Source of the DNA: Lantana camara
Lineage: Eukaryota > Streptophyta > Magnoliopsida > Lamiales > Verbenaceae
Assembly (NCBI GenBank): GCA_037501455.1
Contig: CM074858.1
Span: 48,357,001-48,421,000 of the forward strand
Reading direction: 5' to 3'
Length of the DNA: 64,000 bases
In this document: piece after piece, positions 1-57,600 of the stretch
Numbering within the stretch: the first letter of the stretch is position 1
How the letters are laid out: each line of letters starts with the position of its first letter
The notes under the pieces: generated by a model
What the model was told of the DNA's origin: nothing
Database searches by the model: none
Seen by the model: the letters and a program-made list of their open reading frames with translations, nothing else
Made by a program: the position numbers and the translations under genes

Positions 1-2386
1 CAAGCTTTTAGATCCATTTTCAGCTCCTAAATCGAAACATGAGGCCTATTTGTATGCTGTGTGCGAACTGATCTGCTGCTGTTGCATTTTGTGATTAGTT
101 GGTGGTTCTAATGTGCTCCAATTCGTATCAATTTGCATATACATGGAGTATTTGAGTAGCTTAGCATGTTAGCATTTAGTTCCCAAGCTTTTAACTCCTA
201 ACTCAGCCCCTAACTTGATGATCATGGCATGAATGTATCGATTTCTCAATTTTGGTTCTAATTGCGTTGCTTGTTTGATGAACCTTTTTGGATGCATTCT
301 TGAATCTCTTTGTGTGATTCTTTGGTGTGTATTTGATGCTTGTTTTATGTGTTATAATGCTTGAGTAGTCCCTCTCTTTCAGCCCTTGATTTGCTCTTTG
401 TTTTCTTCCCCTTTTCAACCGCAGCTGTCAGCCCTTTCCGCCTTTTTCGCCTCTGTACCTAGACACCCCCGTGTCTCGGTTTGTTCTTCTGGAGTGACAC
501 GGGCGTGTCACCCCCCCCCTTTTTGTAGCTTTGTTTCTCTCCTGTACTGAGACACGGGGGTGTCTCAGTTTAGGCTTCTGGGATGACACGGGCGTGTCAT
601 TACCCTCGGTTCGATTTTTAAGTGTAACTCTTTTCCGTTCCCTTGCTTTTCATTGCTTTCTCTTGTCCCGTTTGTGGCCTATATGCATTATTAGCTTAAT
701 GTATTATGTGTTAACTTGTGTAATATGAATTTATGGCTTGATTGGTTTGCTCATTTTTGAATTATGACTGCATATGTGCGATATGCCCCTCTAACGTGTG
801 TTTATGACTTCATGCCTCGTTTATATGCCTTGCATGATCATTCTTTGCTCCTTCTATGCTATGAATGCTTTGATAACATGTTTTATGGTACGATAAGATC
901 GTTATATGAAATCTGTGAATCCGTTTGATATGATTTATGAAACTTATGTATTAATATGAACTCTTATGCATTATATGTCAATTTGTTAAGCTCTATACGC
1001 ATCACTTGCATTCATATGCATTCGCCGAGCGTCAATACGGTTCATTTTGAGTCTAAGTTTACCTCTTGCTCTTTGCTTTGCTCTTAGGTTCGTTCCAATG
1101 TGAGGAAGTGGTTCGTTTGACTCCTTTTGGTCCGTTTTGTTCGGATTGGTCGTCCAGGTGAGGTTTATTTCTTTTAGTTATTCGACCTACAACCTTTTGT
1201 GTTTTTTAAACCCGCATGCGAGTATTATATATGTATATTTATGGTAAATATGTGTGAGATATGTATGTTAAGGGCTTGTCCCATTTGTTATACGACTTTG
1301 AAACGGATTTGTAAAGGTATAGAAACTATTTTCCGCTTGTTTTGAACACTTTGGTAAGGGTGCATGTGTTAGCTTTGTTCGTTTGTATCAGATTCAAGCA
1401 AGTCTCCGATTTTCTGGTGGTTTTCATTTGTTGGGCCCCGGAGAGTGGCATGGCAACTCGAGACGACCATGGGGTCGCTGAGCTCTCCCATCAACACTTT
1501 CCATTGAGAGTTTCGCCCGACCTTAGGAGGTTGAGGAAGGGCGGTGCTCTTGAGCCGGCGCAGGCAAATGTCGAAGGATTCAAGGAAGTAATTAAGCCTT
1601 GTATCGTTGGTACTGAGTTCGTAAGCTCGTTAGATAGTTCGGGCCGTACACCCTACTATCACCCGGTGTGAAGGATGGTTTATGATTTCTGTTTGATTTG
1701 TTCGTTTTGATTCGGAGTTAGGGGTTTACTTTTGTATGAAACGTGAAATGAGATTGGCCTTGTGATTAACTAAAATTTGGCATTTTGGCACTTGCCCCTT
1801 TAGTTTCCTTTTCAACCTATATATCTAATATCACGGGAAACGTTTTAGTTTGTAAAACCCATTCTCGGTTCAAGGTTCTTTACTTTTGATACGTGCTTTG
1901 CTTTTTACGTATTAGTGTGAGTGTGTTAGCCCCCTCACCACTCTCTAGGACTGACCCTCGTTATTTCTATCTTTTTCCCCCTTTGATTTGAGGTTGCAGG
2001 TACCCGTTTTGTGGGAGTTGGAGCTAGGCGGTTGTCATTGAGTCTTGGTTTTGGAGAGCTTGAGTCTCATGCATTGTATCTCGGTTATTTTACGCAATTT
2101 GTTAGTTTCGAAATATGCATTAATTTGCTACTTAGTTCTGTCCTGGGATTCAGTTTTTATATTTGCTTGGGTGTCTAAAATTTGTATAAGTAATATGTGG
2201 AGAACAAGATATGATTTGTGCTTGCATGCTATAAGTTTTTATCTATTGGCTTCCGCGATTTTGTCTATTGGATTTTTGTTTGTCACCCGTTCGCCATGGC
2301 TTGATGCGTGGACGGAGACTTAATTTCGTTTCACGTGTTGAGTTACGGTGCGGGGGATGTGGCGCCCTTCGCTCCGGGGTGTTACA
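1..2386 (+). mobile_element. Family A LTR, 3' portion (copy A0)
   Basis: The stretch matches the family A LTR at 54682-58864 in the same orientation; for example, its first 50 bases correspond to about 56243 onward in that copy. It ends with the family terminus CTCCGGGGTGTTACA. The start lies outside the window, so it could be a solo LTR or part of a longer element. No primer-binding site follows 2386, so it is not a 5' LTR reading rightward. It is inserted in C-element internal sequence; the five bases after it (AGCTT) would be one copy of the target duplication. It carries the palindrome cluster at 461-600 and an AGGTGAGG site at 1156-1163. Short ORFs here are not genes. Confidence 0.85.
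461..600 (+). repeat. Palindrome cluster in LTR A0
   Basis: Four perfect dyads occur in 140 bases. 461-476 has arms AGACAC/GTGTCT around CCCC. 495-510 has TGACAC/GTGTCA around GGGC. 546-569 has 10-base arms ending GACAC around GGGG. 583-600 has ATGACAC/GTGTCAT around GGGC. All share a GACAC/GTGTC inner arm and a 4-nt G/C core. The outer arm bases differ between units but pair within each unit. Function is unknown; see findings. Confidence 0.9.
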
Positions 2387-3070: not shown

Positions 3071-6000
3071 TGTAGCATCCCAAGCGGTGGGGCACCACAC
3101 CTCGTACTATGACCCGACACGTCTACGAAATGGAAAGTCCGCACACGCACGAAGCCACAGCGAACGGGTGACAAACAAAAAACCAACCTAGGCTAGGCGG
3201 TACCTAAACCCTGTACAAATGCAATTATGCAAAACCTGAATACGGAAGCGATACAAAATATGAATTCTCAAAAACTTTAATCAGCAATCATAATTCATAT
3301 ATTTCAAAAAGTAACTCAACATCAACTAAACGGGTTCAACTGCCCTAGAACCTGTCCCGATCAAGCATATAATCAAAACGGGTTCATCTAAACCGAGCCC
3401 TGTCCTAACTTGTCCCGAATTTCATACATCCAAATCATAAGTAACAACCTGCATAATATATACATATCATATACATAGTTTCCTTCACAAATCCAAACAA
3501 AGTACTTAACAAATCGAACAGACCGACACAGACTCGACAAACCCGACTCAAAGCCGCCTAGCTCAAACCTGCAAGAACTGAAAAGTGGAAAAGAAGGGGG
3601 AGGGTCAGTCTCTAGAAGACTGAACGAGCAGGAGCGATAAATATATATAAAAACATGCACATGCAAGTCATAAATTCCGAGCAAAGTTTTATTTAAAGTT
3701 AGTTTCCAAGAGGGCAAGAGAATAACTAAGCAATGCTCGGACTTTACGACTAATCATATTAAATTCGTTAAGTTCATAATTCATATATAAACATAAAGAC
3801 TCGGCGAGTGAGCGTGCATCATCTCCAACCAAACTCCGACCGTGTATGACAAATAGCAATAACACATTTGAATACGTGATCATGCAATATATCATAGTAC
3901 ATGCAAGTCATATAACATAAGATATAATCGTTTGGGCAATCCGTATCCCGGCCTTCCCGCACGGTGCCTAAACATATCATAATATAAACATAATCATAAA
4001 ATAAGTTCCAACCTTCTTCCTCTGGGTGGTGGAAGGGTTAGCAAGACCCGACCACCTCATGCATAATGGCTAGTGAGGTACATGAATCCTCAAAAGCCCA
4101 ACTAGCATTTTCTTGTCAAAACTCCTAACGAGATCCGTTTCTTCGTTAAATATAAATGGAATTAGCACATGGGATCACCGCCGGCCCTTGCCTCCCCGGA
4201 TAGCCACATGTACTAAATTCCTGGGCCCGTGAACATAACATACATGCAATCTCGCCAAAACATTTTAGTTCATAAGAAACATAACATATTTCATAATTTT
4301 GGAGAAAATGTTACTCGATAATAATTTACTCGATGACTCCACTTTGAAAATAACATATATATATACATACATAAGGTTTTGGTCAAAACTTGTCACATAA
4401 GGGTTGTAGGGTTTAGTATGTAACTAGAACGAAAACACCCTCACCTGGTACCAGACAAAGCCAAACCCAAAGCAAATGGTCCATCCCGGAACCTGCATGG
4501 CCACAAGTCACCACCCCGGGTGCACCTGTACCAACTGAACACACAAAACACAATATAGAAGTCACACTCACACTCAGACAACCATATAAAGACGCACGAC
4601 ACATGCTCAAGTACTTAAGAAATGCAATGACATAAGCAGAGTTCACATTCATACTAATTACTTGCAAAATAAAATATCACATGGCTCAACATATTCATAA
4701 ACTAGATCAAGAGATGTTCTTATGCATAATTAATTTAAACAAACAAAATGGAAAGGCAATGCATGTCACATTATTTCATTTAAATTCATATATCAAATAA
4801 CCAATTCATATTCGTACGAATAACTTATTTCTTACGTGCAAAAGTTTCTAATTTAATCATATAAGTTTCATACAATTCATATATCGCATAATAGAATTAT
4901 TTTAAATTAAATAATTAAACCTAAATTAAAAAGTTTCAAATTAAATCATCCAAGACATACTAATTCAATTCTTACTAAATCATAAATTGCATAACAAATT
5001 CTTATATCAAATAATAAATTCCAATTCAATTTAAGTGATTAGACTAATTAAAAGCTTCAAGCTTAGGCGTAATAATTTCTCTTAATCGAAATCATAATTA
5101 GCATATTTGTTTTATCAATCCACAAGGATTAATTAATTGAAGTCATACAATTTATATGTTTAATGAAATTACACATACACCCCTTCAAACTTAAACAAAT
5201 AGCATGAATTCAACATATCGGGGTCCAATTTGCGGATCAAGATATTCATACATATCACATTTCACTTAATACATGATTTTATATCCGTTGACATACATAT
5301 TGTTCGACAATTACAACAATACACAATTTATTGCAATTAAACAATTAATTCCAAATATTTCAAAATACATAAAATAAATCACAACAAATCAACCAGACAT
5401 CCGATTGACGAACGGAAAGTGGCGTTGAACTCACCTCGACGAAAGGAACTTGCTGTCCGAAGGGCGTCAGAACGCCGCCACCGGAACCAGCCGAACCGCC
5501 ACGTGCAGCCGTCGGGCCACCACCTCCGGTGGTCAGAAAATTCCCAGGAAGGACAGAAACATGCGCCTTGGCCTGCTCGACAAAAGCCCTCAACCAATTT
5601 TAGAAAATACCAAACACGCCGGACTTCGTTGACAAAATACCGAACTAAATCCCAACGACGAAAATGAAATCCGAACATACCATTGGAAAGCCCGTAGCGA
5701 GGCTTTCGAAAGCCCCATAGCCTAAAGCCGAAAAAGTCGCCGAAAAATTGGACCGCCGGTCCAGAGCCGGTTCGCCACTGGTCCGCCACCGCCGGCCAGT
5801 TCTTGGGCAGCCACCTACACGAACAACTCGATCTTGTCGTGTTAGACAACTTCTCAGAAGGAACCGTCGCCAAAAGATCGCCGAAAAAGCTTCAAACCAC
5901 CGCCAAAAGCCGCGCCACCGCTACCACGCCAGAACCACCACTTCCGCCGCGATTCGCTCCAATCTGAGGCCATCAAGCCCTGTCGGAAAACGCCGCTTTC

Positions 6001-6725
6001 CGCCGCTACAGTAACCGCCACCGTGAGCATCAGGAGGCGCGTGCGGCGCTGTCCGGCCATCATTGGCCGCGCCGTTGAAACTGGAGTTGCACCGGGAGCT
6101 CTTCTAACAGATGGGGTGGCGCGTGTCTGAGACAAGTCGCCGGAGACCGCCGCGAAGAGGCAGCGAAATGGCGGGTGTCCGTTTCGCCGCCACTGCTTCG
6201 CCGTAGCGCCACCACTACTGAGTTTCAGGCTATGATTCTTGTACCATTGTGTCGGGCTCATCGAGTTGATAAATTTCCACTAATCAAACGTCGAATTCTG
6301 TCGAGAAACGAATGAGAACGGACATGTGTGTGTTTTCACACCTCCACTATATGAATATTGCTGGATCACGGGAAGAAGACGGCTAAAGCTGGAGCTGAAA
6401 TTCTGGCACAAAAAACGAGGATCCGGGGTATATATATCGGGTCCTCGTACACAAAAACGGTCGGAAGAACGGGCTAACGAAGTGAGAATGGGGCAAACTT
6501 AGAGTCTACGGACTCGTTTCGATGCCCCGAACGTAAAGTAGGGGTCAAAAAGGTCGAACTCTCGACCGAACGAGAAATGACCGGAAAACCCCTTAAAAGA
6601 GAAAATTGCAACAAGCCCCTAAACTCTTAAAGAGTTCAAAATAGGGCCACACAAAGCACATAATTAAACACATAAAAAGGTTTAAAAGTGACGTAGCTTA
6701 TTTGTAGGACGAGCGGGGTGTTACA
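3071..6725 (-). mobile_element. Family C LTR, copy C1 (5' LTR)
   Basis: The plus-strand boundaries are TGTAGCATCCC at 3071 and GGGGTGTTACA ending 6725 (3,655 bp). It is homologous to C3 (21634-25300) and C2 (28775-35561). The following GTGTA is the likely target-site base run; the same GTGTA occurs at the matching position in D2. On the minus strand it has a TATA-like run near 6430, a GC-rich leader of about 0.9 kb, a GTGAGT donor-like site at 5430-5435 and an AGGTGAGG site near 4440-4447. It is nested in family D LTR sequence. The 135-164 aa ORFs in the GC-rich leader are not preserved in C2 or C3, so I do not call genes. Confidence 0.88.
6424..6445 (-). promoter_or_regulatory. Putative TATA box of C LTR
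   Basis: On the minus strand a GAGGACCCG block is followed by ATATATATACC. The GAGGACC block recurs in C3 (about 24990-25015) and C2 (about 35240-35275). The TATA-like run is weaker there (ATATAATA and ATATGTAA). The position, about 290 bases from the LTR 5' end, would fit a U3 promoter. The transcription start is inferred. Confidence 0.45.
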
Positions 6726-8356: not shown

Positions 8357-8812
8357 TGTAACGCCCCGATTTTCATTAATTAATTTCTTACGTTTTATTA
8401 TAATTTTATAAATTAAATTATAGCATACTTTCATGAAATTACATAGAATCATATCAAATTTAGAATTTATTGTATGACTCGAAAATATTTATTACGTGAA
8501 ATATTTATCGGAAGTGGTTTAATTACGAAATTGTCCCTACATGTTCATTTCTTTAAATTTAGGGACTAAATCGCATAGCTTTCTCATGGATTTAATTGAT
8601 CAATTTCCAACCCATACATACTTGATTGCATGACTTGAGAATCAAAAGGGACTAAATTGTAATTTGAACATTTCACCATTTTCAAAAATGGTGAATCACG
8701 TTATATTTCTTCCATGAGTTTCCTTATTCATTTTTCATTCAATTTCATCGATCATTTTGCTTCCCTATCTCACCGAACCTCAGCCCCAACAAGAAAGGAG
8801 AGATTTCATCAG

Positions 8813-9331
8813 ATGGATATCCGAAAATCCTATATTCGTCCGCATTCGAATTCATTTAGAGAGGATATTATCCGAATCCGTCTCAAGAGGATATTATCCG
8901 TATCCGATTATAGATATCCGAATTATAAACGGATAAGGATATGGTAATAAGACATCCGATCTATTTAATATCCGATCCGTTTCATTATCCGTTAGATTTT
9001 CCGTTATCCGATTTATCCGTAATCCGTATCCGATAAATAATATATTATATTAAAATATATACACACAACTGTGTATGTATAATAGATTATTAGTATTAAG
9101 TAAATTTTTTAGCGCATTTATTAAAGAAAAATCTTAGGTTTTAATACTAACCATATGTTTACTTCAACATTTATATAGAGATAATATAAGTAACATATAT
9201 TATGTTATTAATAAAAGTATTATATTTCAAATTAATTATATGATAAAATTTATAATTTCCAACATATTTATACATTCATTAAAAAATAAAATTAATATAT
9301 ATAGATATAGTTATTATTTCTCTCTTTGTCC

Positions 9332-9394
<63 letters not shown>

Positions 9395-9666
9395 AGTCAT
9401 ATAATTATTAAATAATTTATTTGTAAATGAGTAGTTGATAATTTGATTAAAAATTCGAAGTTATATAGTTAAATAATTTATGTCAAAATGAATAGTTGAA
9501 AATCCGATTAAAATCCGAATCCATCCGAATCCGCCTTGTATCCGTATAAAAAGGATATTATCCGAATTCGATTTAAAAGGATATTATCCGTATCCGTCCG
9601 AATCATAAAAGGATAAGGATATGGTAATCATACATCCGATCCGTTTAATATCCGTTTACACCCCTA
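8813..9666. mobile_element. AT-rich non-autonomous DNA element F (MITE-like)
   Basis: The insert breaks the E LTR; the flanks match a continuous stretch of the B LTR near 53575-53610. It is dense in GGATATTATCCG and ATCCGNATCCG motifs. The left (about 8815-8985) and right (about 9530-9665) ends are similar direct repeats. The right end reads CCGTTTACACCCCTA, resembling a hAT-type terminus, but I could not see a clean matching left terminus or an 8-bp duplication. Superfamily is uncertain. It includes a (TCTA)n/(TA)n microsatellite at about 9335-9390. No transposase. Confidence 0.5.
9335..9391. repeat. (TCTA)n-(TA)n microsatellite
   Basis: Five or so CTAT units run directly into an uninterrupted TA array inside element F. 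Confidence 0.95.
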
Positions 9667-10120
9667 TATCCATCCAAGATTTTCAAGAAATATTTCAAGT
9701 TTAGAGCAGAATCATCATCTATTTTTTCCATTTCTTTAGCTTCAAGGTGGGTGTTTGCATGGTTTGATGATTCTTGATCAAATATGAGCGAGCTAGGGTT
9801 TGTGATTTATAGCATAAATGGATTAATTGTTGATTGAAACATGAATATGTGATTATAGCCTAATTTGATACATGAATTCTTGCAAAATTTGAGGTTATGT
9901 GGTGTTTTTATATATGAGCTTGAAAGTGGCAAACTTGGATGATCAAGCATGGTTTGATGAGTTCTTTTGTGTTTGTGTTTTATGATACTATGAATATATA
10001 TATGCATCTTATTTTTCAAGAAATCATGAGTTTTGGACGATTAAAACATGACTTTGTTGCTTTGGTTGTTGTTGCCGTGAACCTCCCCTGTTCTGCTCTG
10101 TTTCTGCAATTGCAGAGGAG

Positions 10121-10349
10121 CGGGAACGGCCCTTCCCGTCCCCAGTTCATTCTGGGAACGACCGTTCCCACTCCTTTGAATTCAAAGACGGCGCGAGCAT
10201 CGGAACGTCCGTTCCCATTTTGGCCTGCGAGCCGAAAGGGTCGTTCCCAGCATAAGTTGCCATTTTCATTTTAAAAGCGCAGGGGCGTTTTCATGGGGCC
10301 ATGGGAACGGCCCTTCCCAGTTTATACTGAGGGCCGGAACGGCCGTTCC
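10121..10349 (+). repeat. Palindrome cluster in LTR E
   Basis: The units are: 10121-10138 (CGGGAA/TTCCCG, one mismatch beside the core), 10153-10170 (TGGGAAC/GTTCCCA around GACC, perfect), 10202-10215 (GGAAC/GTTCC around GTCC), 10302-10319 (TGGGAA/TTCCCA) and 10336-10349 (GGAAC/GTTCC around GGCC). A degraded unit lies at about 10234-10249. It is the same design as the family A cluster with wholly different arms. Confidence 0.9.
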
Positions 10350-11788
10350 CACCACGCTGACAGAACAAAACCTACTGCATATATATCAAGTTTTGAGATT
10401 TTTAACCAATACATTCTTTGATCTCAAATTGCTATTATATGATAGAATACATGCTAAAACAAGATGTTTTCATGCTACATTGTATATTGCATGACATCTC
10501 GTTGCATTTTCGCCATTCGTCATATTTGGTCCATTTAGAGTCAAGTCTCATGTATACATATATCCCTTGCACAAATCAGCTTCTCGTGACGTGGAGCAGG
10601 GGCCGTAGGCCGTGTCTCGACTTGCTTTTTGTCGGTAAAGGTGAGGTTTAATTGCTAGTTACTTAGAACCCGTATAACCTTATGTCACTTTTGGGCCAAA
10701 CGGTATAAATATATATATTTACAAATGTTTCTAAACTCCCAAGTCATGTTCTTTACAAGTAAACCATATGTTCATTGAAAGCAAGTCATGTTCATGAAAA
10801 GTAAGTCGTGTATCGTGTTACAAGCAAGCCATGTACCGTGTTACCGTGATTGAACCGTGATCATGTTTTGGCGAATTATCGTGTATCGTGCACTATGGGA
10901 CCGAGAGTGAGTGTTTGAGCCAACCGTGAAAGCATAGGGTTGACGGGTAACTCTTACACCTCTCTCAAACCGTGGGGATGCCCCCTGAATCCACCAGGAG
11001 GTTTGGTGGAGGAAAGGAGTCCCGTACGTGGGAGTCATGTTCCCGACGTACAACGTGTTATCGTGGGTGGTTCGGCCTTTGCAAACCCACCACCATTGGA
11101 GAATGATGGAGTTCGTGTTATCGACCGTGTGCACTATAATGATTTGTGTGATAACCTAATTAAGTGAAAATATAATCTTTGTTCACTGTCGGGGTTAGGT
11201 TGGAGATCGTGCACGCCCCTCGCCAGGGCCACTGATTGTTAAAATAAAAGTGATTACCGTGTTAAACTTTATAGTTGTAATCTCGGGCAATGTATATTAT
11301 ATCCTTGAACTTATATTGTTTGTATATCAAAAGCGTTACCCGAGGTTATAACATGCATGCTACTTATGTTTATATATATTTATGCCCCTCACTCGGTCTT
11401 CACAGGCTGATGCCTCCACCTTTCAGGTTTCGTCCGTGGCGTGCTAGGCGGGAGTCGGGTCGTGTCTTTTATCCAACTGAGTCTAGCATAGCATTACGTC
11501 CATTGTATTAGCATTTCAAAGTATCATGTTAGTTGTTTTGAGTACTTATATGTGAATGTTATTTGGAAGATGATAATGTATTGATATGATGAAACGATAA
11601 TATTATGCTTCCGCTTTTGAGTTTCATGTATTGGATTTATTTTATTGAGGGTCTAGTCCCGCCTAGCTAGCTTGTTCTTTATTTATCACCCGTTCGCTAT
11701 AGGTTAGTTCATGTACGGGGTATCCATTTCGTACGTGGATCGACCTATTGTGCGGGGGTGTGGCATCTCCACGTGTAGGGATGCTACA

Positions 11789-13549: not shown

Positions 13550-13640
13550 GGTCGCCGCCGCGACCAACTACTCGAGAGTTTACTGTTTTTCCTTCGCTGT
13601 CGCGACTGCTTTTCAGTACAAATTTGCCATGGCCGCGACA
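13550..13640 (+). repeat. Palindrome cluster in G1, partly decayed
   Basis: 13550-13565 is perfect: GGTCGC/GCGACC around CGCC. The second unit has collapsed to GTCGCGAC with the core lost (about 13599-13606). The third (about 13630-13639) keeps only GGCCGCGAC. The equivalent G2 units are better preserved. Confidence 0.8.
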
Positions 13641-15722
13641 CCCTCAAACGTGCTCCGATTGACCTGAAATTCAAACTGTAGAAACTTTTTTGATTCTGGA
13701 CTATTTTCCAATTGGAATAACCTCAATATCATTTCTGGTTTGGGAGTTACAACCATTTTAATTTTGTGTCGCTATTTTACCGAAACACTGCACTCACCCA
13801 ACTTTGAGCCTACGCCATTTCCACCTTGCTTTGAACCACGATTTGAGCCATATACCATTCAAAAGGCCTATGTGTCTAGTTTCATATCCAACAAACAAAA
13901 CCTAATTCCAACTTCTAGAACTCAAGATACGTACAATTCGTTACAACTTGCGCATTTCAAAAACTGTTAGCTCTCATCAAAACATGCTCAAATCCGTGTT
14001 CTTGCTTTCCTTACTTCCTCGGACTCCGTATGTGATTTGAATGAATTTTATGCATGATTAATTGATAATATGTGATATATTTTGATAGATTATGGATTTT
14101 ATGTTGTGAATCCAATGTGTAAACGTGAAATGAAATTGTGAACGTTTAAATGCTACAATATGGCCTTCCTTGCAACTATTGTTTCTTTATGTGTTAATGG
14201 ATTCCTTTCACCTTAAACTGATTCCTATTCATTCTAAACATGTTGATATGTATGTTATGAATATTATTTTAAGGTTATGGCTCGATTTGATACGATTCAT
14301 GAAAGATATGAAACTAATGAACTTCAAACCTTCACATATTGATTGAACTTGAATGAATTGCTTGTTTATGTGCTTCTAATGCATTAATTGTGCACATGAA
14401 CACCTTCATAATATCTTATTATCTCATATGCACTTCATATCATGTTAATTGCATTGTCGTCCGTTATTTATGGTTCATATAGAGTCTTGAGTCTCATGAA
14501 TGCACCGTGTTGTCTTTCGTACAGTTTTTTCCAGGGCGGAGATTTGTCCGCTTCATAGGCTTTCCTCAAGTCTGCTTGTCTTCTTGATTTTGTTTGGTAA
14601 GGTGTATCAGGTGGGTTTCTCTTCTATTAGATATGCATCGACCCGATACATCCAATGTGAAAGCTTTAAGCCAAAGTATTGTATATATATATATATATAT
14701 CGAGTCTTTTCGAAGGAGTCAATGATTCCCAACGTAAAGCCCTTCTTTTATGTATCCCTACCTTATGCTTTTGGCGAGAGCATGATTATGAACGCACGGG
14801 CCCAAGGACTTGATGCATGTGGCTATCCGGGGAGGCAAGGCCGACGGTGATCCCATGTACTGGTCCCACCTTGAACTACAGCGAAACCGACCTCGTTAGG
14901 AGTTAGCGAGGAAGGGGAACCGGGCTTTTGGGGGTTCATGGACCCCCACTAGCCGTATTGATTATGAGACGCGTTCTCCTGGACGGGTCCTCCCGGGGCA
15001 CCGGTTACACCATCGGGAGGAACAAAACCTGTTAGTGGCATGGGTTCACCCATGGTCAACTGGGACAATATCTTCCGCTGCGCATGGTAGACGAGTTTCT
15101 AACTAGAGGGAAAAGGAGTAAATATTATGATTGAATGAGTGAATGATAATGATTGAATGATCGAATGAACGAATGATTGATTGATTGTTGCATGATCGTA
15201 ATGAATTAATGAATATGTGCACACACGAGTTGAAGGTTGAAGATTTCGCCCACTCGCACGTATTGGCCTCATGAATGAAATGAAAGAATGAATTGATTGT
15301 TGTGATCCCGAGCGCTGTTTTCTTTGTTTTCACCCACTTAGGAAATATTTCAAAACCTCGTGCAGGATTATAGCTTGCATGTGTGGGTGTTTAAATTCTG
15401 TATTATTAAAATAATATGCCCTGTTTTATACCCACCAGTCTCCTTTAGACTGAACCAGGCTTTGTTTTCAGTTTTCTTTTGTAGGTGTTGGAGTGCTAGG
15501 CGGGATTTTGAGTCTGTTGAGTCCTGTGGTTAAGTCAGAGTCAGTTCATAAGCATATCGTAAATTGGATAAGTTATACTATGAATGTATGAATTGTTATG
15601 ATTATATTATACAAATTCGGGATAGGCTTCTAAGGATAGATTGAACCAGTGGTTTATGACTTATGATTTATGATTCATGTTTGAATCTCGGGACTAGGTA
15701 TCTATGCTAGTTGAGCCCCGCA

Positions 15723-43408: not shown

Positions 43409-43416
43409 CCTATAGA

Positions 43417-46400
43417 TGTAACACCCCGGAGCGAAGGGCGCCACATCCCCCGCACCGTAACCCAACACGTGAAGCGAAATGGGAACTCCGACCACGTATC
43501 AAGCCACGGCGAACGGGTGACAAACAAAAATCCAACCTAGGCTAGGCGGTCTAGACCCTACTCAGAGCACGCAATAAAACAAGTAACGGATGCGGAAGCA
43601 CCAGAATCTCATAAGGCAAATAAACATACTCAAGACATATCAAACTTTCGATTCAATTTATACAAACTTTACAATTCCGAATTTAAAGCATAACTTATAC
43701 ATATTTCAGACTTGGCCAAAGTGCATGAAGAAAACGAAAGTACAATGCATGAGACTCAAGCTATCCTCAAACCCGACTCAAAGACAACCGCCTAGCTCCA
43801 ACACCTCAGAACGGGTACCAGCAACTCAAAGCAAAAGGGGAAAAAAAGATAGAAATAACGAGGGTCAGTCCTAAAGACTGGTGAGGGGGCTAACACACGC
43901 ACCCATACATATACATAAGAGCAAAGCATATACAAAGCTTAAAGGGGTTTATGAACCGGGCACGGTTTTTGCATTCTAAAACATTTAACCCGTGGTAATA
44001 TATATAAAGAAAGAAGGTTGGGGCCGAAGGCCAAATCAGTCAAGTTTTAGAGTTTAGAAATCCGCCCCCGTTTCACAACCATAATCGAAACGTAACGAAC
44101 TGAAAGCTTAAATCCATCACCCTTACTTACTCCATACACCAAGGCAAAACGAAAACAAAGCAAATCATAACCCAACTCCACCCCAACACCGTTTTGGGGA
44201 GAGAGGTGCCCCTCTCAACCCCTGCTGAAAGCTGAATGAGACGGGGGATCCACCCGCTCCTTCGACGGGTCACTAAGCACACCGCCGGCTCAAGAAGACC
44301 CGCCTTCCCCTCGACCTCCCGAGGATGGGCGAAATCTCCCTTTTGTGGAGTCGTGTTGATGAGAGAGCCCGGCGACCCCATGGCCGACCCGGGATCACAT
44401 ACCACTTCTCCGGGGCCCAAACTTACACTTACACTTACACTTATCACGCTTACCAGGCGAAGCTTATCCACAAATCGTATCACGCTTACAAACACACACA
44501 CACTTAACAAAGCTTGTCAAAACAAAAGAAAATAGAGCTTATATACGTATAAAAGCGTTTTCAAATTCTTAAGGCAAACGGGATAAATCCCACGAAATAC
44601 GTATCCAAACACATATCTATATATATACATATATAAGTCGCATGCGGGTTCGAAATTCAATTAGGGTCTTAGGTCATCATAACTAAAAGGAAAGAAAACC
44701 TCACCTGGACGAGCAAACCAACCAAAACGGACCAAAAGGAGTCAAACGAACCACTTCCTCAATAACGGAACGAACCTAAGAGCAAAACAAAGAACAAGAG
44801 GCAAACTTAGACTCAAATGAACCATATTGACGCTCGGCGAATGCGTATGAATACATAGGAGATGCTATTATGTCATGAACACGTTCATGTGCACTATTAA
44901 GGAATTTAAATCATATAATCAAGTCATTCAATTCTTCGCTCACTTTCATTCGAATTCATAATTTCACGTTTCCAATCAATTCAAGAAATTCAAGGCACAA
45001 GCTCCAACATTAAAGCAAATAAGAGCATTGAAGCAAATTAAGTTCGACACATAATCAAACGTATTCAATCTTACACAAAACCCTACTACATACACCCTAT
45101 TACATAATATAACATATTCCCAAAGTTTGAAAGCAAGAACAAATCACAAGACATGGGAAAAGGGTTATGGAAATCACAAACGCCACAAAACGCACATAAA
45201 CGGCATTCAACAAAAGCACGCCTAAATCTCACCCAAAAGTTATGAAATCGAACCACAATATTCCCAAAACATATTATAACAAGTTCATAGTTCATCACAA
45301 ATGAAGATAAAGGCATCAAAGAGGTGAAACAAACCAAAAACCGAAAAGGAAAACCAAGGGCTGCGCAGGGGGAGGGACACGGGGGTGTCCCTCAACTAAA
45401 CTAAGCTGAGCCACGCCCGTGGCTCAGTCCAGACATGCCCAGGAAGCATGACACGCCCGTGTCTCACCTTTCAAGGCAAATGAGACACGGGGGTGTCACG
45501 GTACAGCACCAAAAACGCATACAAAGTTTGCCGGCAAAACTGACCCTAAACAAAATCAGTCCAAAAGCATAGCAAATCAACTCCAAATATTATGAAACTT
45601 GATATACAACATATTTAGCATGTTAGGAACATATTTCATTTAGAACTCAAAGGCTAAATCACGCATTAAGGTCACCGAAATCATGCAGCAACTCTGGAGC
45701 GCCAAAAACGGACATATGAGCTCAATTGGTTCAATCATGCCATGCTCAAGTGCTTAGGAGTTGAAAATGAAGCTAAAACTCTAGGGAATGAATACTAACA
45801 TGATAAGAAACTAATATACTCCATGTATATGCAAATTGACACGAATTGGAGCACATTAGAACCACCAAATAATCACAAAACGCAACAGCAGCAGTTCGGT
45901 TCGCGCATAGCATACAAACAGGCCATCATGCTTCGATTAGGAGCTGAAAATGAATCTAAAAACTTGCAAGATCAGGGCTAACATGTAAAGCAATTAGTAT
46001 ACAACATCTCCATGCAAATTCGCACGAATTGGAAGTCATTAACTCAAGCAACGAAGCACAAAACGTCACAGCGGTTCCAAAACAGGGGAGCAGATTTTAA
46101 GGTTCAAGAACTCAAGTTTGCAGCCATATTAAAGCATGAATTCAGGGAAAAACGAAGCAAATTCATAGAAAAACATGTATACTACATTACCAAGCATTAG
46201 CATACGAAATTGGAGGCAAGAATTCATCCATTTGATCTCAAAAACGTGACAGCAGTTTGGTGGAAATGAGCAGATTTGCAGCAGTTCGGTTTTCAAGTTT
46301 CATGGCCAAAAAATTCAAGGTTTCAATCATGCTATCAAAGAGAAAACAACTCTAACACATCTATCATGAAGTAAGAATCAAGAATGGAAGCAAAGGAGTT

Positions 46401-47351
46401 CATATAATCAACAAGGAAGCACCAAATCAGCCACAAACTCAAGCTAAGGCAAGGAAGCAACAAATGACCTCTAACCCTAACTATTCATGCAAGTCTCCAT
46501 GACCTTATTAAATCTGATGCAAATCATGAATTTCAAGGATCAAATGAAGCATAGAAGAGAGGAGAATACATAAATATGCTTACCTTTAAGAGTTGATGAA
46601 GTATGGAAGAGTTTAGCTCCAAAAATCACAAGCCATGGGAAGGGGTTTTCTTTCTTCTTCTTCTTCTTTCCATTTGCAGCAGATTTTTCCTTCTCTTGGG
46701 GTGAGGAGCACGAAATGGAGAGGTAGGGAAGAGATAGGAGTGGTTAAAGATCAAATAAACCAAGGGTTAAAGTTTAAGCATGGTTAAAATGGCCCCACAA
46801 GTGTAAGACTAGTCAAAGAAGGTGGCTTAAGCACAAGCTGTTCGTTCCGGGCGAAAAACGAGGGTCCAAACGGGCTTAGAAAAATACCAAATCAGGTTCC
46901 TTGGCTTCGTCTCTTCGTTACGAGTCCAACGCATCTTCCAGAATTCGAATCCGAATTCCCTAGCTCAAGTTATGGCCTCCGGAACAAGAGACGCGCTAAA
47001 ACTAGTTAGGCTCTCATGTCCCTCGTCAAATACTTAAGGTTTAAAACCTCGACAAACGAACCCGAAAACATAAAACGAGCATGCAAACACCTTCATAACT
47101 CACATATATCACGCATATCGAAATCTCACAAAAATCGGAATTGAATTCCGGCACATAACGAGCAAATTACGAGCATACGAAACTTAAACGTTTAAAATCA
47201 AAGTTCATGAATATAACCAATTAATTTCATATAAATTCAAATAATCATATAAGCATTAAAATAACATTCAAATACGTAATTAAATAATTTAAAGCACATA
47301 AAACCCTCTCGTTACGGCGTACCTGGAAATCCGAACGATCGGGATGTTACA
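43417..47351 (-). mobile_element. 5' LTR of the intact A element (A4)
   Basis: 3,935 bp, co-linear with A3. It holds the same palindrome cluster (about 45372-45497), donor-like site (about 46578-46587) and AGGTGAGG site (about 44699-44707). It ends GGGATGTTACA at 47351, followed by ATCAC. Confidence 0.95.
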
Positions 47352-48615: not shown

Positions 48616-51600
48616 TGTGACACCCAGACTCCTCGATCGTATAGGCATGACGTATGTGCGCAATTTAAATTATTTTAATTTCATATTTAATTGATGCATT
48701 TAATTGAATTATATTTTATTATTTGAATTATATGTCAAAATTTGCCTCAAGTGATTTATGATATGAATTTCTATGAATTTATGATATGTGAAATTAATTC
48801 CCGAACAAGATAATTTCATAAATTATGTGATTTATATGAGTTAAGGGCTTAATCGTATGATTTTCTTTAATTTTGGACTTAATTAAAAATTTGAATTGGA
48901 CTTATTTGACACTTTTTGAAAGTTTAGGACCTAATTGAAAATAGCCTTTTTAATAAAATTCTTTTTATTTTAATTCATTTGATTTTTAATTTAATTTGTT
49001 TTATTTATTTATTATTTCTTGAATTAGAATTTTATTATTCGAATAATATGCCTATTTGTTGAAATGAGTTGCGTTCGTGTTCGATTTGAAATCGGAATTT
49101 CGTGCCATTTTAATATGTTGGAGTTTTATGAGTCGTGAACTTGAATACGTGCTCGTTACGTGTTTTCAGGTTTATATGGTGGGTTTTCGGGAGTTGTTTT
49201 CGTTGGGTGACCTAAAGGGGGGCTAAAGTGTGCTTAGCGCGCCTTGGGTTCCGGGTAGTGTATTTTGAGCTCGGGAATTCGGATTCGAATTCCGTCACCT
49301 CCGTTGAACTCATTTCGACGATTTGAGTGTATTGGAACAGTACTTATAATTTTTTGACCTCGTTTGATACTCCGAAATCAGCCCGTAACTTTGTCTCGCG
49401 CTCATATGGCCACCTTTCACTAATTTGCACATAAGTCCCTCATCTTTTGAGCTTTTCACATGAAACCTAGACCCACATCTCACTAACTCAACCCTTTATC
49501 ACCCCATACTCCTTTCACTTCTTTCCATGCACAAGAGAAAGGAGGGAGATCAGATTTTTGGAGTAGCAGCCCCTTTTCCCGTCACTATTCGCCCATTGAA
49601 GAAATTGAGCTCTAATCTTCATTTTCCTTCACCATCTTCAAAGGGTAAGCTTGTATTTGATATGTAAATGATTAAGTGGTCATTTGAATCCAAGAAAAAC
49701 TGATTTTGATCCATGTTTGATATAGTTTTGCCTCAAGACATGAATAGTTTGGTTTTTATGCCATTTTTGAAATCCATCACCTCTCTTGGTGTTTTGCTTG
49801 AATTGGGGCTGGAATATTGGTCACTTATGCTTCATTTATTGTTGAATATACCTGACTTTGGTGGTATTTGTGATATGGGTGAATTACCATTAATGTTCTT
49901 AAGGTTTCAAGTTGAGATATGCATGAGTTGGTTCCATTTTCTTACCTTAGCTGCTGCTGTTCGTTTCCAGCTGGTGTGAAGAGGTATTTGTGCTGAATTA
50001 CTGCTGTTTTTCCTGCCTTAGCATGCTTGGATGAGATGGTATTTTTTTGGTATGAGATGCAAGGCTGAACAGGGACATTTCCACCATTTTTCCCATCTCT
50101 GGAGTGTCTCCCCGGCCGGGGAGATTTTGCTCATGAAAATACCCGCCCGGGTACCTTCTATGCAGAAACATTCTGCATAAAAAGTACCAGGGAGGGTACT
50201 TTTATGAATAAAAACTCCCCTGGATGGGGAGATGGGGTGCAGCCATGGAATGTTCTAATTGTTTTCCTAACTTTTGCATGATTCCTTACGTGAGATGCAT
50301 GGAATACTTCATTTGTTTCCTAACTTTTACATGGTTTGTACATGGGAATGCATGGTTTGATTATTTGTGGACTTTACATGGACTCTACATGGATTATAAA
50401 TGACTTTAAGGTTTAAGGAATTGCTGGAACGTGTATATATACGTGTAGTATATTATGTTATATATTTATGTAATATGTTTAAGCGCTTTAAGTTTGATAT
50501 TTTAAATTAAATGTGATCCTATGGTTTTATATGAATTCTTATGTATGAAATGTGTAATCTAAATGTGATTTTATTATTTAAATTATTTGTTATATTTTAT
50601 GAATTACGTTTATGAATTTATTTGATACGGTTCGTACATGTTTTGAATTTAAATGACCTAAATGACGCATTCTTGCATTTCATATGCATTCATTTCATAC
50701 ATATGAATTTCCGAGCGTCTAAGTGGTACATATTTGAGTCTAAGTCTCGGGTCTTGCGTTCTTTTGTTTCAGAGCCTCTTCAGGAAGTTAACAAGCCCGA
50801 GGTTTAGGTGTCCGGTTGCTCCTTTTGTTCAGTTTTCACTCCATTTCCACTTCCAGGTGAGGGTTAGGATCTTTTCTTTTAGATAAGTGACCTATGGCCT
50901 TTATGTTATTGATTTCCTATCCTGCATGTGGCTATATATGTATTATATGGTTAAATACGAATGCTTATGATACGTTTATGATTTTATGAATCTCCTTTTT
51001 TGAATTTAAGAAAATGGTATAAGTATGGGCGTATATGAGCTTATGATTTGAATCCCTTATACGTTTCCTTTATGTTTCTAGCGAGATGTGCCCTGAAAGA
51101 TGGGATTATTGGTAAGTTTCTTATGAATCCGGGCCCAGGGATTGCGGGTAAGGACGCCCCGAGACGGCAAGGGCCGTCAGGTTAAACCTGTGCACTTCCC
51201 ATTTGTGGTGGTGGCGTGCGACTCTTGGAGGTTGAGAAGGAGCTATTACATTGAGCCCTCGGTGAATAACCGGGGAAGGCATATCGTGGGTTAGCTACCC
51301 CGAATATATATAGAATCCATAAAGGTGGAGAGGGTTTGACTCCCGATCACCAAGGCATTGAGCAGTTATGAATTTATGAATTCTTATGTATTTGTGATTT
51401 GTACGAGGAGTTGAGGAGGTCCTTACTCACCGGACGTTTATGTTTCCTTTTATGCTTTGGTGGTTATGAAACGAGTTAGGATTTCTTTAAGTACTATATG
51501 TTATGTTTTGAAATATTTTGGTATGCAAAACCCTAGCTCAGTTCATGATCGACCCCATTTGAATACTTGCTTTGCTTTATATGTATTTAGGTGTGGGTGT

Positions 51601-52048: not shown

Positions 52049-52102
52049 TGAAAATCTTCCTACTGTTTTCATATTCAGAACCATATTCAGAACCATCATT
52101 TT

Positions 52103-52120
52103 TGGCGCCGTCTGTGGGAA
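52103..52120 (+). promoter_or_regulatory. Primer-binding site of the Tat-type element
   Basis: TGGCGCCGTCTGTGGGAA, the sequence commonly found just inside Tat-lineage 5' LTRs. It lies 8 bases after the inferred LTR end. Confidence 0.85.
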
Positions 52121-52176
52121 ACCACTGTTTTCATTTCTTTACCTACGCTAGTTGAAAAGCAAGCACCACTTTCACC

Positions 52177-53080
52177 ATGGTCACCACCAGATCTGGCGTA
52201 GCAGGAGACGGTGATGACCTCCCACCCCCAACCATTACGGGAGGCGCGCCACCAGTTGGAGGAGCTCTCCCCACGACGGGGCAAGCCACACTCCCAGGGG
52301 GAACCACCACGGAACAACACCGCCACGGTGGCGGGAGAATCTGGGCTTTAGGTTACCCAGATTATCCCTCAGAGCCAAACTCCCGCCATCCAAGTCCACC
52401 CAGGGGGATATCCCTTTATGATGCCTCCGCCTGGTTATGCCTTAACTCCTTCTCCCATGCTCCCCATGGTCCAGCCTTACCACGCCGGCCGGATACAGCT
52501 ACTCGTCATCCTCTCTAAGGAGATTGAAGGGGTAGAGATACCCCCCATGATGCCCCGACAGTTATAGGCTATTTACACTCAATGCGAAGTTCAGGCTGCC
52601 CAAAACACCTGGCAAAACTTTATCGCCACCTATTTCCCCTCAGGGACGGCTGCTCAGATTGCCCTTTCCCCCCCCCCCCCCCCCCCCCAATGGAGGGATG
52701 GCGGGTCCATCCTCTAACGACAGCCCAAACGATTTTACAAGCCCAGCCACCACCTCCACATGCTAAAGAGAAGGAAGTCCCCGTGAGGGGAGGGGAAGAA
52801 CGGCCACAGGCCAATAAGGGAAAGGAGCCTGTGGAAAGAATGAACATTGATGATGAGGCTCATTCTCAAGCCTCAAAAAGAGGGAGCAAGGCAAGAGGAG
52901 AAGATCCCAACCTTCTCGCGGGTATATAAGACTAGCTGTAGGGGTTACAGGATATAGTGGGATAGCTCTCTCGACTACGGTCTCAAAACCCCCATGCTGG
53001 GGACGATAGGGCCAATGCCAGAGACGCCCACCGCCAAGCCCGACAACAACACGCTCCCAGGCACCAAGAGCAAGAAGAAA
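52177..53080 (+). pseudogene. Tat-type gag, frameshifted and truncated
   Basis: The ORF starts MVTTRSG, a common gag start in Tat elements, 57 bases after the primer-binding site. The first frame continues to about 52350. The gag-like sequence then moves to another frame (GYPFMMPPPGYALTP, about 52408-52455), followed by stops and a C homopolymer at about 52669-52688. The sequence is cut at 53080 by the B element. Gag would form the retroelement particle; this copy cannot. No protease or polymerase remains in the window. Confidence 0.7.
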
Positions 53081-54032
53081 TGTAATGCCCTAATTTCCAG
53101 ACAGTCAGGTACGCTCGACCCGAGTGAGTTTCGAGCGTTAGGATTTTATTTTATTATTTTCGTTTATTCAATTTCTACGTGTTATATTAATTTTATGAAT
53201 TGCATTTCAACATGATTACGTGAAAATATGTGAAAACGTGTCAATTTGCGAATTATTGTATAATTGGAATTCAATTGCTACATGAAATAATTGCCGAGCG
53301 TGATTTAATTGCTTAATTGTCGTTAAATGCTCATTTCCTTTTCTTTAAGGACTAAATGGCATGAAAATCTTGTGGACTAAATTGATCATTCTTTTATCTT
53401 TATATCCTTAATTGCATGACTTATATGTTTGGAGGATTCAATGGCAAATACCACCCTTTTCCAAGACATATATCGATATATGCATCTCTTCCATCTTCTT
53501 CATTTTCATTTCATGCCAAAAATATCAACCTTTGCTTCCTCTTTCCACCGAGCCAAACCATGAAGAAGGGAGGAGAAGATTTCATCAAATTCATCAAGTT
53601 TTTCCAAGAAAATTAGAGTTTTAAGTTCCATTTTTATCATCTTCTTCCATCTATTTTCCTTTCAAGGTATATATGAGCTAATTCTAGGAATTCTTGAATT
53701 AGAGCTTGAAGCTAGGGTTATGATTTCTATGTAATAACTTGCTTATAAGATGTTAGAATTATAATTCTAAGCATTAGACTTGAAATTCATGCATAAATAT
53801 TGAGAATTATGGATGTATATGCTAAGTTCATACATGAGTTGATGATGATAATTCTTGGAGATTCAAGCATGATATAAGTGTTTATATTGGTTTTATTGTA
53901 TCTCAAGCATGTACACATATTTCCTTTCATGAATTATAACATTTAGAAGTAAATCATGGATGTTTAGCGGAGAATTGGTTGTGGTTCATGTTCCCCTGTT
54001 CTTCCTGCTCTGTTTCTGTAATGTCTGCGTAA

Positions 54033-54240
54033 CGGGAAAGGCCCTTCCCGTTCCCTTTGTATTTGGGGAGCGGCCATTCCCATATTTTAAATTATGTGCA
54101 TGGCGGTGAGGATGGGAACGACCGTTCCCACTTTATCTCACAGACGAGAACGGTCGTTCCCATCTTCGGGGCATAATATCGGGAGACTGGGAATGGCCCT
54201 TCCCATTTTACACTATAACCCGGAACGACCATTCCCATCT
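54033..54240 (+). repeat. Palindrome cluster in LTR B
   Basis: 54033-54050: CGGGAA/TTCCCG. 54113-54130: TGGGAAC/GTTCCCA around GACC, perfect. About 54147-54162: GAGAAC/GTTCCC around GGTC, one mismatch. 54188-54205: TGGGAA/TTCCCA. 54222-54235: GGAAC/ATTCC around GACC. A decayed unit lies near 54066-54080. The arms match family E. Confidence 0.88.
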
Positions 54241-54681
54241 CACTGACAGAACAAAACATTCTGCATAAAATTCCAAATTTCACATTTTAATCCAATGGTT
54301 TTATTGATCCCAATTTGTGATTATATGATCAATTACATGCAATAATATGAATATATCATGCTACATTCGTAAATGCATGTCATCTCGTTACTTGATCACG
54401 CCGTGCGTCCTATTTGGTACCATTATTAAGTCATTGTCTCACAAGTGCACAATGTCCTGTTTTCTTGTCCAGTTCTTCTCCAGGGCGGAGATTGTTGATC
54501 ATGAGCACGTTCACGTATCCATGAGTCGTCGTGTCGCCTATCAGGTGAGGTTTAATTGTAGTTACTTAGAACCTATACAACCCTTACGTGAGCTTTCGGC
54601 CAAAAAGGTATTTATACTTATAGTTTTCCATGAAAATACTCATGATTACAAGCAAGTCATTTCACGCAAGCAAGTCATGTT

Positions 54682-57600
54682 TGTAACATCCTGATCGTTC
54701 GGATTTCCAAGCATGCCGTAACGAGAGGGTTTTATGCGCATTTAAATTATTTAATTTCTTAATTGAGTGTTATTTTAATACTTATTTGATTATTTGAAAT
54801 TATATGAAATTAATTGCGTATATTATGAACTTTGAATTTTAACGTTTAAGTTTGCATGCTCGTAATTTGCTCGTTATGTGCCCGAATTCAATTCCGATTT
54901 TTGTGAAATTTTGATATATGTGATATATGTGAGTTATGAAAGTGTTTGCATGCTCATTTTAAGTTTTCGTGTTCGTTTGTCGGGGTTTTAAACCTTAAGT
55001 ATTTAACGATGGACATGAGGGCCTAACTAGTTTTAGCGCGCCTCGTGTTCCGGAGGTCATAACTTGAGCTCGGGAATTCGGATTCGAATTCCGGAAGATG
55101 CGTCGGACTCATAACGAAGATATGAAACCAAGGAACCTGAATTGGTATTTTTCTAAGCCCATTTAGACCCTCGTTTTTTGCCCGGAACGAACAGATTGTG
55201 CTAAAGCCACCTTATTTGACTAGTCTTCTTGGCGGGACCCATTTTGAACTTAACCAAAGCCTAACCTTGATCCTTGGAGCTGAGTTAACTATCCCTTATC
55301 TTCTCCTAGCCCTTTAAACCGAGCCAAACACCCTCCATTTTGCTGCAAATGATCGAGACAAAGAGAGGAGAGGAGAAGAGAAGATAACTTTGGCCCTTTT
55401 GTGGATTTTGAGCTCAAATCACCATCTTTCTTCTTCATATCTTAAAGGTAAGTATATTTATGTATTCTCCTCTCTTCTATGCTTCATTTGATCCTTGTAA
55501 TTCATGAAATGCATCAGATTTAATAAGGGAATGGAGGCTTGCATGAATAGTTAGGGTTAGACTTCATTTTTTTAATCCTTGTCTTAGCTTGAGTTTCATG
55601 GGGGTTTGATGCATGTTAACTGATTATTTGAGCTTCTTAATCTCAATATATGACTTATACTTCATGTTAGTTGTGTAACATATGATCTACCATTGATAAC
55701 TTGAAGAAAGCCTGAGTATTTAAGCATGAAACTGGAATCCGAACTGCTGCTGCAAATCTGCTCATTTTCACCAAACTGCTGTCACGTTTTTGAGATCAAA
55801 TGGATGAATTCTTGCCTCCAATTTCGTATGCTAATTCTTCATAATGTAGTATGCATGTTCTTCTATGAATATGCCCTGTTTTCCCCTGATTTTATGCCCC
55901 TTTTCAGTTGGATATATGAGTTAGAATATGACTTGTTTTCATGCCTTTCTTGCATCAGTTTTATGTGGCTGTTTTGGGGTGCTAAATCTGATCATATGAA
56001 CTTATTATGCTCCATTTTTGATGTCTAATACTTGGTGGTTATGTAAGGAATGATTTTCCATTAAAACCTTTGAAGAAATATTGAGTTTTGAGCATGAAAC
56101 CTAGCATACTATCTGCTCTACGGGATCTGCTGCTACTGTGTGGATTTGTGCTTTGTTGCTTGAGTTAATGACTTCCAATTCGTGTGAATTTGCATGGAGA
56201 TGTTGTATACTAATTTCTTTACATGTTAACCTTGCTCTTGCAATCTTTTAGATCCATTTTCAGCTCCTAAATCGAAACATGAGGCCTGTTTGTATGCTAT
56301 GCGCGAACCTAACTGCTGCTGTGAAACTTGAAGTGTTTGGTTGATCTCTTGTACTTATTTTCGTGTGAATTTGCATGAGCATGAAGTTTATGAATTGATA
56401 TTTATGTTAGATTTGCCCTTTCTAGCTTTTAACTTGCATTTTGACCCAAATTTGAAGTGCATGGCCTGTTTGTAAGCATGGTATAACCGAACTGCTGTTG
56501 TTGCATTTTTGTGATTACTTGGTGGTCCTAATGTGCTCCAATTCATGTCAATTTGCATATACATGGAGTATTTGAGTAGCTTAGCATGTTAACATTTAGT
56601 TCCCAAACTTTTAACTCCTAACTCAGCCTCTAAGTTGGTGATCATGGCATGAATGAATGGTTTGCTCTCCTTTGTCCGATTTTTGTTGCTTGATTTAAAT
56701 GATCTTTGTTGCTGCATTCTTTGGCCTTTTAATGTGATTATTTTGTGTGTATTTTATGCATGTTATGTGTGTATTTGAGGCCTAAGAAGTTCCCCAAGAG
56801 CTGCTCCTGAAATGCCCTGATTTTGCCTTTAAAAATGTTGCTGCGCCAAAAACAGTTTTTCAGAAATTTGAACTGGACACGGCCGTGTCCAGTTTGTGCT
56901 GATTAGTGACACGGCCGTGTCAAGGCCTCGACTTGGGCATCTGATTTATTTAAATTCGGACACGGCCGTGTCCGTTTCCTTTGGTTTTGGACATGGCCGT
57001 GTCATATGTCACGGTGGTGCCTCGGGGGAGTTTCTTTCGTCGTTTCGTTGCTTTTAATTGCTTTCTTTCGTCCCGTTTGTGACCTATATGCATTGTTAGC
57101 TTAACGTATTGTGTGTTAACTTATGTTATATGAATTTAAGATTTGATTTATGTGCTCATTTTCGAATTATGGCTTCATATGTGCGATATGCTTCTTTAGC
57201 GTGCGTTTATGACCTTCTGTCTCGTTTATATGCCTTGCATGATCAATCGTTGCTCTTTATAAGATATGAATACGTTGATAACATGTTGTATGGTATGATA
57301 TGTTCGTTATATGGAATCTGTGAATCCGTTCGATATGATTTATGAGACTTATGAATTAATATGAACTCGTATGCATTATATGTCAATTTGTTAAGCTTCA
57401 TACGCATCACTTGCATTCATATGCATTCGACGAGTGTCAATATGGTTCATTTCGAGTCTAAGTTTGCCTCTTGCTCTTTGCTTTGCTCTTAGGTTCGTTC
57501 CGATGTGAGGAAGTGGTTCGTTTGACTCCTTTTGGCCCGTTTTGTTCGGTTTGGTCGACAAGGTGAGGTTTTCTTTCCTTTTAGATATGATGACCTAAAA

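Follow-up and report, generated by a model that had tools for sequence, protein, structure and literature searches.

Paired palindrome clusters in the long terminal repeats of likely Del/Tekay-type retrotransposons from Lantana camara

Palindromes that recur in clusters, with a CGG-CCG core and element-specific arms, have been described in the long terminal repeats (LTRs) of Sireviruses, which belong to Ty1/copia (Bousios et al. 2010, PMC2829016, drawn on here and below for portions of its text). In those portions the array, designated RM, is given for 13 of 21 Sireviruses and as absent from the classic Ty1/copia elements compared, with a criterion of at least eight RM copies per element and 3–14 in the 3' LTR (PMC2829016). 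Strong local structures in maize likewise concentrate in copia LTRs, Ty3 elements being generally without an obvious peak (PMC10760457, in part). We analyzed a 64,000-nt stretch of the Lantana camara genome (assembly GCA_037501455.1, contig CM074858.1, positions 48,357,001 to 48,421,000; hereafter the window) in which ten LTR copies from six families carry palindrome clusters. With a probability of about one half, we read them as binding arrays of paired palindromes of about 16 bp, located upstream of the promoter in LTRs of Del/Tekay type. Palindromes of maize Sireviruses were reportedly also the subject of work by Bousios et al. in 2016.

An earlier note on this DNA, made from the sequence alone, had stated that no element of this kind was described, which is refuted by the Sirevirus LTR palindrome clusters (PMC2829016, in part). 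The RM array is the closest known system, shared features being several palindromes per LTR, element-specific arms and a CpG-rich cluster within otherwise highly divergent LTRs, with centers that are in part CGG-CCG-like. What differs from Sireviruses is, as it appears, the number of units (3–6 per LTR), and further a mostly 4-nt core in a 16-bp frame, the lack of TATA enrichment, and a pairing at 31–34 bp with a T-run, of which the portions of PMC2829016 used here make no mention. Probably new here are arrays in a likely Ty3/gypsy lineage with paired spacing. No description of such arrays in Ty3/gypsy LTRs was found in titles and abstract openings, a search outside which most subscription literature lies, and a literature search with motif strings gave no retrotransposon title among the matches listed; PMC6911290 (in part) deals with palindromes at insertion sites, a separate matter. 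There was no Rfam match at the gathering score, and two tandem family-A palindromes had no match in viral contigs, a result of little weight given that the collection is viral.

The clustering of palindromes in these LTRs is a real observation. Over the whole 64,000-nt window, 350 dyads have a core of 0–6 nt and arms that pair perfectly over at least 6 bp; 33 of them are within the ten clusters, and 28 of the 63 in the GC-rich subset are inside clusters. Non-overlapping GC-rich dyads with an arm of at least 8 bp number 13 in 1,349 bp of cluster (including A4, an exact copy of A3) versus 2 in the other 62,651 bp. The dyads reported in the earlier note are present at all ten of its coordinates, of which nine are distinct, the A3 and A4 clusters being identical as parts of the two LTRs of one element. 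Comparison with shuffled sequence and with the rest of the window also bore the note out for all clusters but G1: density is about 300-fold above the rest, and of 1,000 dinucleotide shuffles per cluster no more than five reached the observed level in eight of the nine distinct clusters. The H cluster was reached by 5, owing to a T-rich 10-bp dyad overlapping its GC-rich palindromes, and G1 by 121, so that G1 stands solely through its homology with G2. Choosing the clusters by eye for their dyads makes the shuffle figures optimistic, but a 300-fold density gap is too big for such a choice.

The same shuffles argue against dyads that arose by chance, from tandem duplication or GC-rich composition, and so do the spacing of the units, described below, and the sequence between them: over the first 14 nt of 18 spacers, identity is barely higher within families than between them (0.37 vs 0.35). 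Since arms are kept and spacers are not, recent tandem duplication is no explanation and was rejected. Two A0 pairs do share part of their spacers, and the GC-rich stretches of two LTRs from another family, C1 and C2, show some dyad excess (14 and 8 of 300 shuffles reach it; 194 of 300 for C3, which has none); overall, a chance origin is highly improbable.

The clusters and their host LTRs are given below. Letters denote LTR families, and spacing refers to distances between centers of units found by rule alone (GC-rich, with at least 4 of 6 arm pairs complementary).

461–600, plus strand: A0 cluster, four palindromes centered at 468, 502, 557 and 591 (spacing 34-55-34)
1–2386, plus strand: A0 LTR, its 5' part beyond the window edge, its end reading GGGGTGTTACA
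10121–10349, plus strand: E cluster, arms GGGAAC/GTTCCC, centers 10129, 10161, 10208, 10310 and 10342; the rule adds 10235 and 10282, with arms unlike the family arms (spacing 32-47-27-47-28-32)
8357–11788, plus strand: E solo LTR, 3,432 bp, target-site duplication TGAAT
13550–13640, plus strand: G1 cluster, weak, one perfect dyad and decayed units (spacing 45)
17486–17575, plus strand: H cluster, centers 17493 and 17524, 31 bp apart, and a decayed third (spacing 31-48)
16263–17747, plus strand: 5' part of the H LTR, start TGTAATGCCCC, broken by G2
18469–18549, plus strand: G2 cluster, centers 18476, 18509 and 18542 (spacing 33-33)
17748–20991, plus strand: G2 solo LTR, 3,244 bp, target-site duplication TTCAA
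39043–39168, minus strand: A3 cluster, four palindromes (spacing 34-40-34 in the LTR sense)
45372–45497, minus strand: A4 cluster, identical to A3
37076–47351, minus strand: complete A element, LTRs at 37076–41022 and 43417–47351, target-site duplication ATCAC
50107–50231, plus strand: I cluster, unlike-arm dyads in one LTR, centers 50115, 50146 and 50191 (spacing 31-45), with an odd-core dyad near 50223
54033–54240, plus strand: B cluster, six units in three pairs (spacing 32-48-32-43-32 at the looser threshold, 80-32-43 at the stricter)
53081–59927, plus strand: B 5' LTR, about 2.66 kb without the nested A2 LTR
56871–57003, plus strand: A2 cluster, centers 56882, 56914, 56965 and 56996 (spacing 32-51-31, then 18 to an extra match)
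54682–58864, plus strand: A2 solo LTR, 4,183 bp, target-site duplication ATGTT, splitting the B 5' LTR

The nest of LTRs, whose ends are close to TGTAACRYCC...GGGRTGYTACA, was resolved by self-comparison and end scans. Exact 5-bp target-site duplications flank the solo LTRs A2, E and G2, and the end scans did not locate the ends of the I LTR. The LTRs of the A element (3.9 kb) enclose an internal part of 2.4 kb with a primer-binding site at 43408 and are nearly identical (18 mismatches and 12 gap columns over 3,935 aligned bases), which indicates that the element is young. The B element has a primer-binding site at 59935, a polypurine tract at 63552, and a 3' LTR that starts at 63565 and runs off the window.

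The earlier note described the dyad clusters and overlooked an order within them: palindromes lie in pairs 31–34 bp apart, about three turns of B-DNA, with a run of T on one side. Adjacent palindromes are 31–34 bp apart in 15 of 28 cases (random placement: mean 2.2, maximum 9 in 5,000 trials) and, at a stricter threshold, in 11 of 21 versus 1.45 under the null, the next fullest 4-bp bin holding 4 (2 at the stricter threshold). This pairing is present in all five arm groups (A, B/E, G, H and I), and none of the 10 neighbors within 16–80 bp of each other outside the clusters shows it. TTT occurs no more than 6 nt past the first unit in 15 of 18 pairs and past the second in 1 of 15 (background 0.114), and at positions 3–5 after the palindrome 42 of 54 letters are T following the first unit versus 14 of 45 following the second (Fisher P 5e-6, on letters, which are non-independent). 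The 18 pairs include three set by eye, each with a decayed or odd-core unit (10208/10241, 13599/13632 and 50191/50223), and unit 18509, the second of one pair and the first of the next, was taken as a first unit; minus the three by-eye pairs, TTT follows in 12 of 15 rule-found pairs.

The units share a frame of 6-bp arm, 4-nt core and 6-bp arm, and with some imperfect ones added by eye the nine distinct clusters hold 34 (12 in A0/A2/A3, 11 in B/E, 5 in G, 3 in H and 3 in I). Clear units number 3–6 per LTR in A, B, E, G2, H and I, with four per LTR in the A element, linker copies left out. Pairs 5, 6 and 7 from the center are complementary in 34, 33 and 33 of the 34 units, with two to four pair types each, a description rather than a test because units were selected for complementarity. 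Cores are G/C-rich (GGCC in 14 of 34) and present in both orientations, CCCC and GGGG in A0, GACC and GGTC in B. The center is exactly CGGCCG in 7 of 34 units, with C-G at pair 3 in 24 and G-C at pair 2 in 24.

Arm sequences are unlike between the five arm groups, as the earlier note had it for its family groups; in correction of it, the A copies have common arms, and so do families B and E. The symmetry with variable arms that it described stands between family groups, in the outer arms of family A and in I, where three units with unlike arms lie in one LTR, whereas the arms of B/E and G are fixed. A test of arm covariation in these copies divides in the same way. With unit centers fixed, the inner arm of family A is near-invariant (59 of 60 pairs complementary, P 0.08), and letters differ further out, with complementarity at the eighth pair in 9 of 12 units versus 4.0 expected (P 0.005) and in 28 of 48 outer pairs 9–12 versus 15.0 when shuffled (P 0.00005); leaving out one homologous unit gives 25 of 44 outer pairs (P 0.0003) and 8 of 11 eighth pairs (P 0.014). 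Tests for arm covariation in B/E (arm P 0.36, outer P 0.11) and in G (arm P 1.0, outer P 0.97) found none, the arms being constant. The selection on symmetry or hairpin form proposed in the earlier note is not proven, because hairpin arms perfected by copying would give the same picture.

Such copying, in which reverse transcriptase switches template within a hairpin, copies arm to arm and spreads the product among units, would make the symmetry a result of replication rather than selection. It is compatible with perfect arms that are wholly different between family groups, with arms that are alike throughout a family although its spacers differ from each other about as much as those of different families, and with 4-nt cores in both orientations, as loop inversion would yield. 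Neither the 31–34 bp pairing in every arm group nor the one-sided T-run is predicted by it, however, and mismatches persist (24 arm pairs in 31 units), even in the young A element (2 of 24). Copying without selection is unlikely in our estimate; an arm-perfecting, core-flipping process could act jointly with selection on spacing.

The arrays might instead be kept as RNA hairpins, a chain of which in the U3 transcript would be recognized by a host Dicer-like enzyme or an RNA-binding protein of the element. Predicted RNA folding per 110 nt in seven LTRs, with energies not corrected for base composition, averages -38.1 to -48.3 kcal/mol in the clusters versus -16.5 to -21.1 in the rest of the LTR, and in these LTRs the clusters rank first or close to first in folding strength (minima -48 to -57 kcal/mol). 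The covarying outer arms of family A fit this reading as well, and maize Sirevirus palindromes are reported as small-RNA hotspots (PMC10760457, PMC5311732, both in part). The 24 mismatched arm pairs (31 units, I left out), on the other hand, comprise 6 G-U, 7 A-C and 11 others, so that the excess of G-U over A-C looked for as a sign of selection on RNA is absent in them, as expected if DNA, not sense RNA, is read. The commonest core, GGCC, is self-complementary and not a loop; hairpins would require neither the fixed three-turn spacing nor the one-sided T-run; and the C1 and C2 LTRs reach similar folding energies (minima of -49.6 and -58.4 kcal/mol per 110 nt) in the absence of ordered palindromes. 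RNA hairpins as the reason for the arrays are somewhat doubtful to us, and most likely they are a by-product of promoter-proximal binding arrays. In C1 and C2 a 5' stretch of the LTR (5400–6400 and 24200–24900) is rich in CpG and in GC (up to 70%); it folds strongly and is without ordered palindromes.

The host elements are likely of the Del/Tekay (Ty3/gypsy) lineage, as judged from the LTR sequences: the likeness to Del consists of a TGTAACACCC-like LTR start, a mostly GGG-type end and LTRs of 2.7–4.2 kb (Cruz et al. 2014, PMC4029996, in part). The Del U3 end is TGTAACACCC with positions 3, 6, 9 and 10 conserved, and the U5 end of type A has GGG at -8 to -10 (PMC4029996, same portions). A start TGTAACRYCC, fitting the U3 site, is found in A2, A3/A4, C1–C3, E, F, G2 and the B 3' LTR, and position 6 is T in H and the B 5' LTR; the A0 start lies outside the window, and those of G1 and I were not found in end scans. 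GGG occupies -8 to -10 in A0, A2, A3, A4, B, G2 and C2, with departures in E and C1 (A at -8) and in C3, whose end reads TATA, and the ends of H, G1 and I were not located in the same scans. The seven full-length LTRs (2,659 to 4,183 bp; H is partial) are within the Del range of 1.1–4.8 kb. Del LTRs have plastic 5' CpG islands, none of them in the eudicot group, and large retrotransposon derivatives (LARDs) are named in the same paper (PMC4029996, in part), in the main text of which the stem "palindrom" has 0 occurrences. The A element resembles a LARD in having long LTRs on both sides of a 2.4-kb internal part with no domain found. LTR palindrome arrays are not known to be a defining LARD feature.

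Both junctions of the LTRs differ from those of Sireviruses. The Sirevirus 5' junction is CA/ATTGG-TATCAGAGC (PMC2829016, in part), whereas here A4 has CA/TCTATAGG-TGGTATCAGAGC, with TCTATAGG between LTR end and primer site, B has CA/TCTTAGG- and C1 has CA/TCTTAAG-. The primer site of the A element, TGGTATCAGAGC, fits the Met-tRNA type, an assignment taken from PMC2829016, where it is given for TATCAGAGC. The Sirevirus polypurine tract AGGGGGAG is followed by AT/TG (PMC2829016, in part); B has the AGGGGGAG octamer with AGAGT/TG after it, placing AGAGT between tract and LTR, and A has GGAGGGGAG-TT/TG. Of 24 open reading frames (ORFs) of at least 75 aa in four inter-LTR stretches, 10 were scanned against Pfam, with no family at the cut-off and two matches, both far below it. 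Just upstream of the A and B polypurine tracts lie hairpins with unlike arms (41040–41059 and 63528–63546), which are the sole two GC-rich dyads with an arm of at least 8 bp outside the clusters.

If the clusters are binding arrays, a dimeric host DNA-binding factor would sit on each palindrome, the two palindromes of a pair would be read from one helix face, and the array would set LTR transcription. Transcription of the U3 of the 3' LTR would yield the predicted hairpins, which may feed small RNAs, and pressure from these could push the arms to change with symmetry kept. A role in binding or at the promoter would likely make the array the same kind of device as the Sirevirus CGG-CCG motif, by analogy. 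The layout fits phased binding sites better than free hairpins because of the three-turn spacing, the polarity of the T-run, the lack of G-U bias and the rise in CpG: from the preceding interval into the array, the observed/expected ratio goes from 0.15 to 0.91 in A2, 0.26 to 0.94 in E, 0.36 to 0.88 in B and 0 to 1.10 in G2. In the A0–A2 alignment, the 450 columns directly downstream of the array are well conserved (0.85, 0.87, 0.94). In the A4–A2 alignment, identity is 0.44–0.61 over the stretch that contains the cluster (columns 1651–2850) and near 0.9 in its flanks; there the sequence has been replaced and the four-unit, two-pair layout kept. This is not general, as the B–E and G1–G2 clusters are about as conserved as their surroundings or more. 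We tentatively consider a directional module, a palindrome, a T-run and a second palindrome three turns on, whose geometry may have been kept across the Ty3/gypsy lineage while its letters turned over completely between family groups, so that symmetry and phasing would be inherited in place of sequence, and which would have arisen separately in Ty1/copia Sireviruses.

Several points weigh against binding arrays in Del/Tekay-type LTRs. Binding alone leaves the switch from one arm sequence to another unexplained, and a sequence-specific dimer has no need of symmetry without a fixed sequence, as seen in the outer arms of family A and in the unlike arms of I. The 31–34 bp bin and the T-run were picked after the data had been seen and then tested, and LTR copies of one family are non-independent, so that the spacing comes down to five arm groups, G entering via G2 alone. 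The CpG step is weak in H and none in A4, and CpG ratios at LTR starts and in parts of E exceed those of the clusters. Identity upstream of the array in A0–A2 reaches 0.92, so conservation is not specific to the downstream side, and the low identity of A4–A2 continues past the cluster. Strong predicted RNA folding suits the hairpin reading equally. A TATA-like word within 100 nt downstream is present in 2 of 9 clusters, no excess over a background of 0.22, and a Sirevirus-like TATA box at a fixed distance was rejected on this count; the E cluster has one such word at 31 bp. The lineage was assigned from LTR ends alone, no reverse transcriptase having been found in the ten ORFs scanned, and the binding factor, promoter and transcript are putative.

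If the lineage assignment is true, LTR palindrome arrays were reached in both plant LTR superfamilies and are not confined to Sireviruses, which would point to a common host factor or a common host pressure. Geometry outliving sequence is a clear, testable sign of a constrained feature, and the arrays allow one to ask whether hairpin-based plant silencing or the recruitment of host factors by phased palindromes is at work.

Within the LTRs we also observed the word AGGTGAGG, which resembles a 5' splice site and occurs 13 times versus 0.99 expected, always in the sense of its LTR. It is found in A, B, C, E, F, G2 and I copies and not in the G1 or H pieces, and it may be an intron start inside the LTRs.

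1156, 10639, 19650, 50855, 54543 and 57561, plus strand: word match to AGGTGAGG
4439, 7620, 22863, 30256, 33508, 38370 and 44699, minus strand: word match to AGGTGAGG

A different element occupies about 52100–52926, with a TTTGGCGCCGTCTGTGGG primer site and a gag-like ORF (MVTTRSG...) at 52156 that gave no Pfam match and no homologue at E 0.001 among 12 candidates. It presumably belongs to another gypsy-type lineage. At 15717–15917 there is a direct repeat of about 100 bp, with two copies at 96%.

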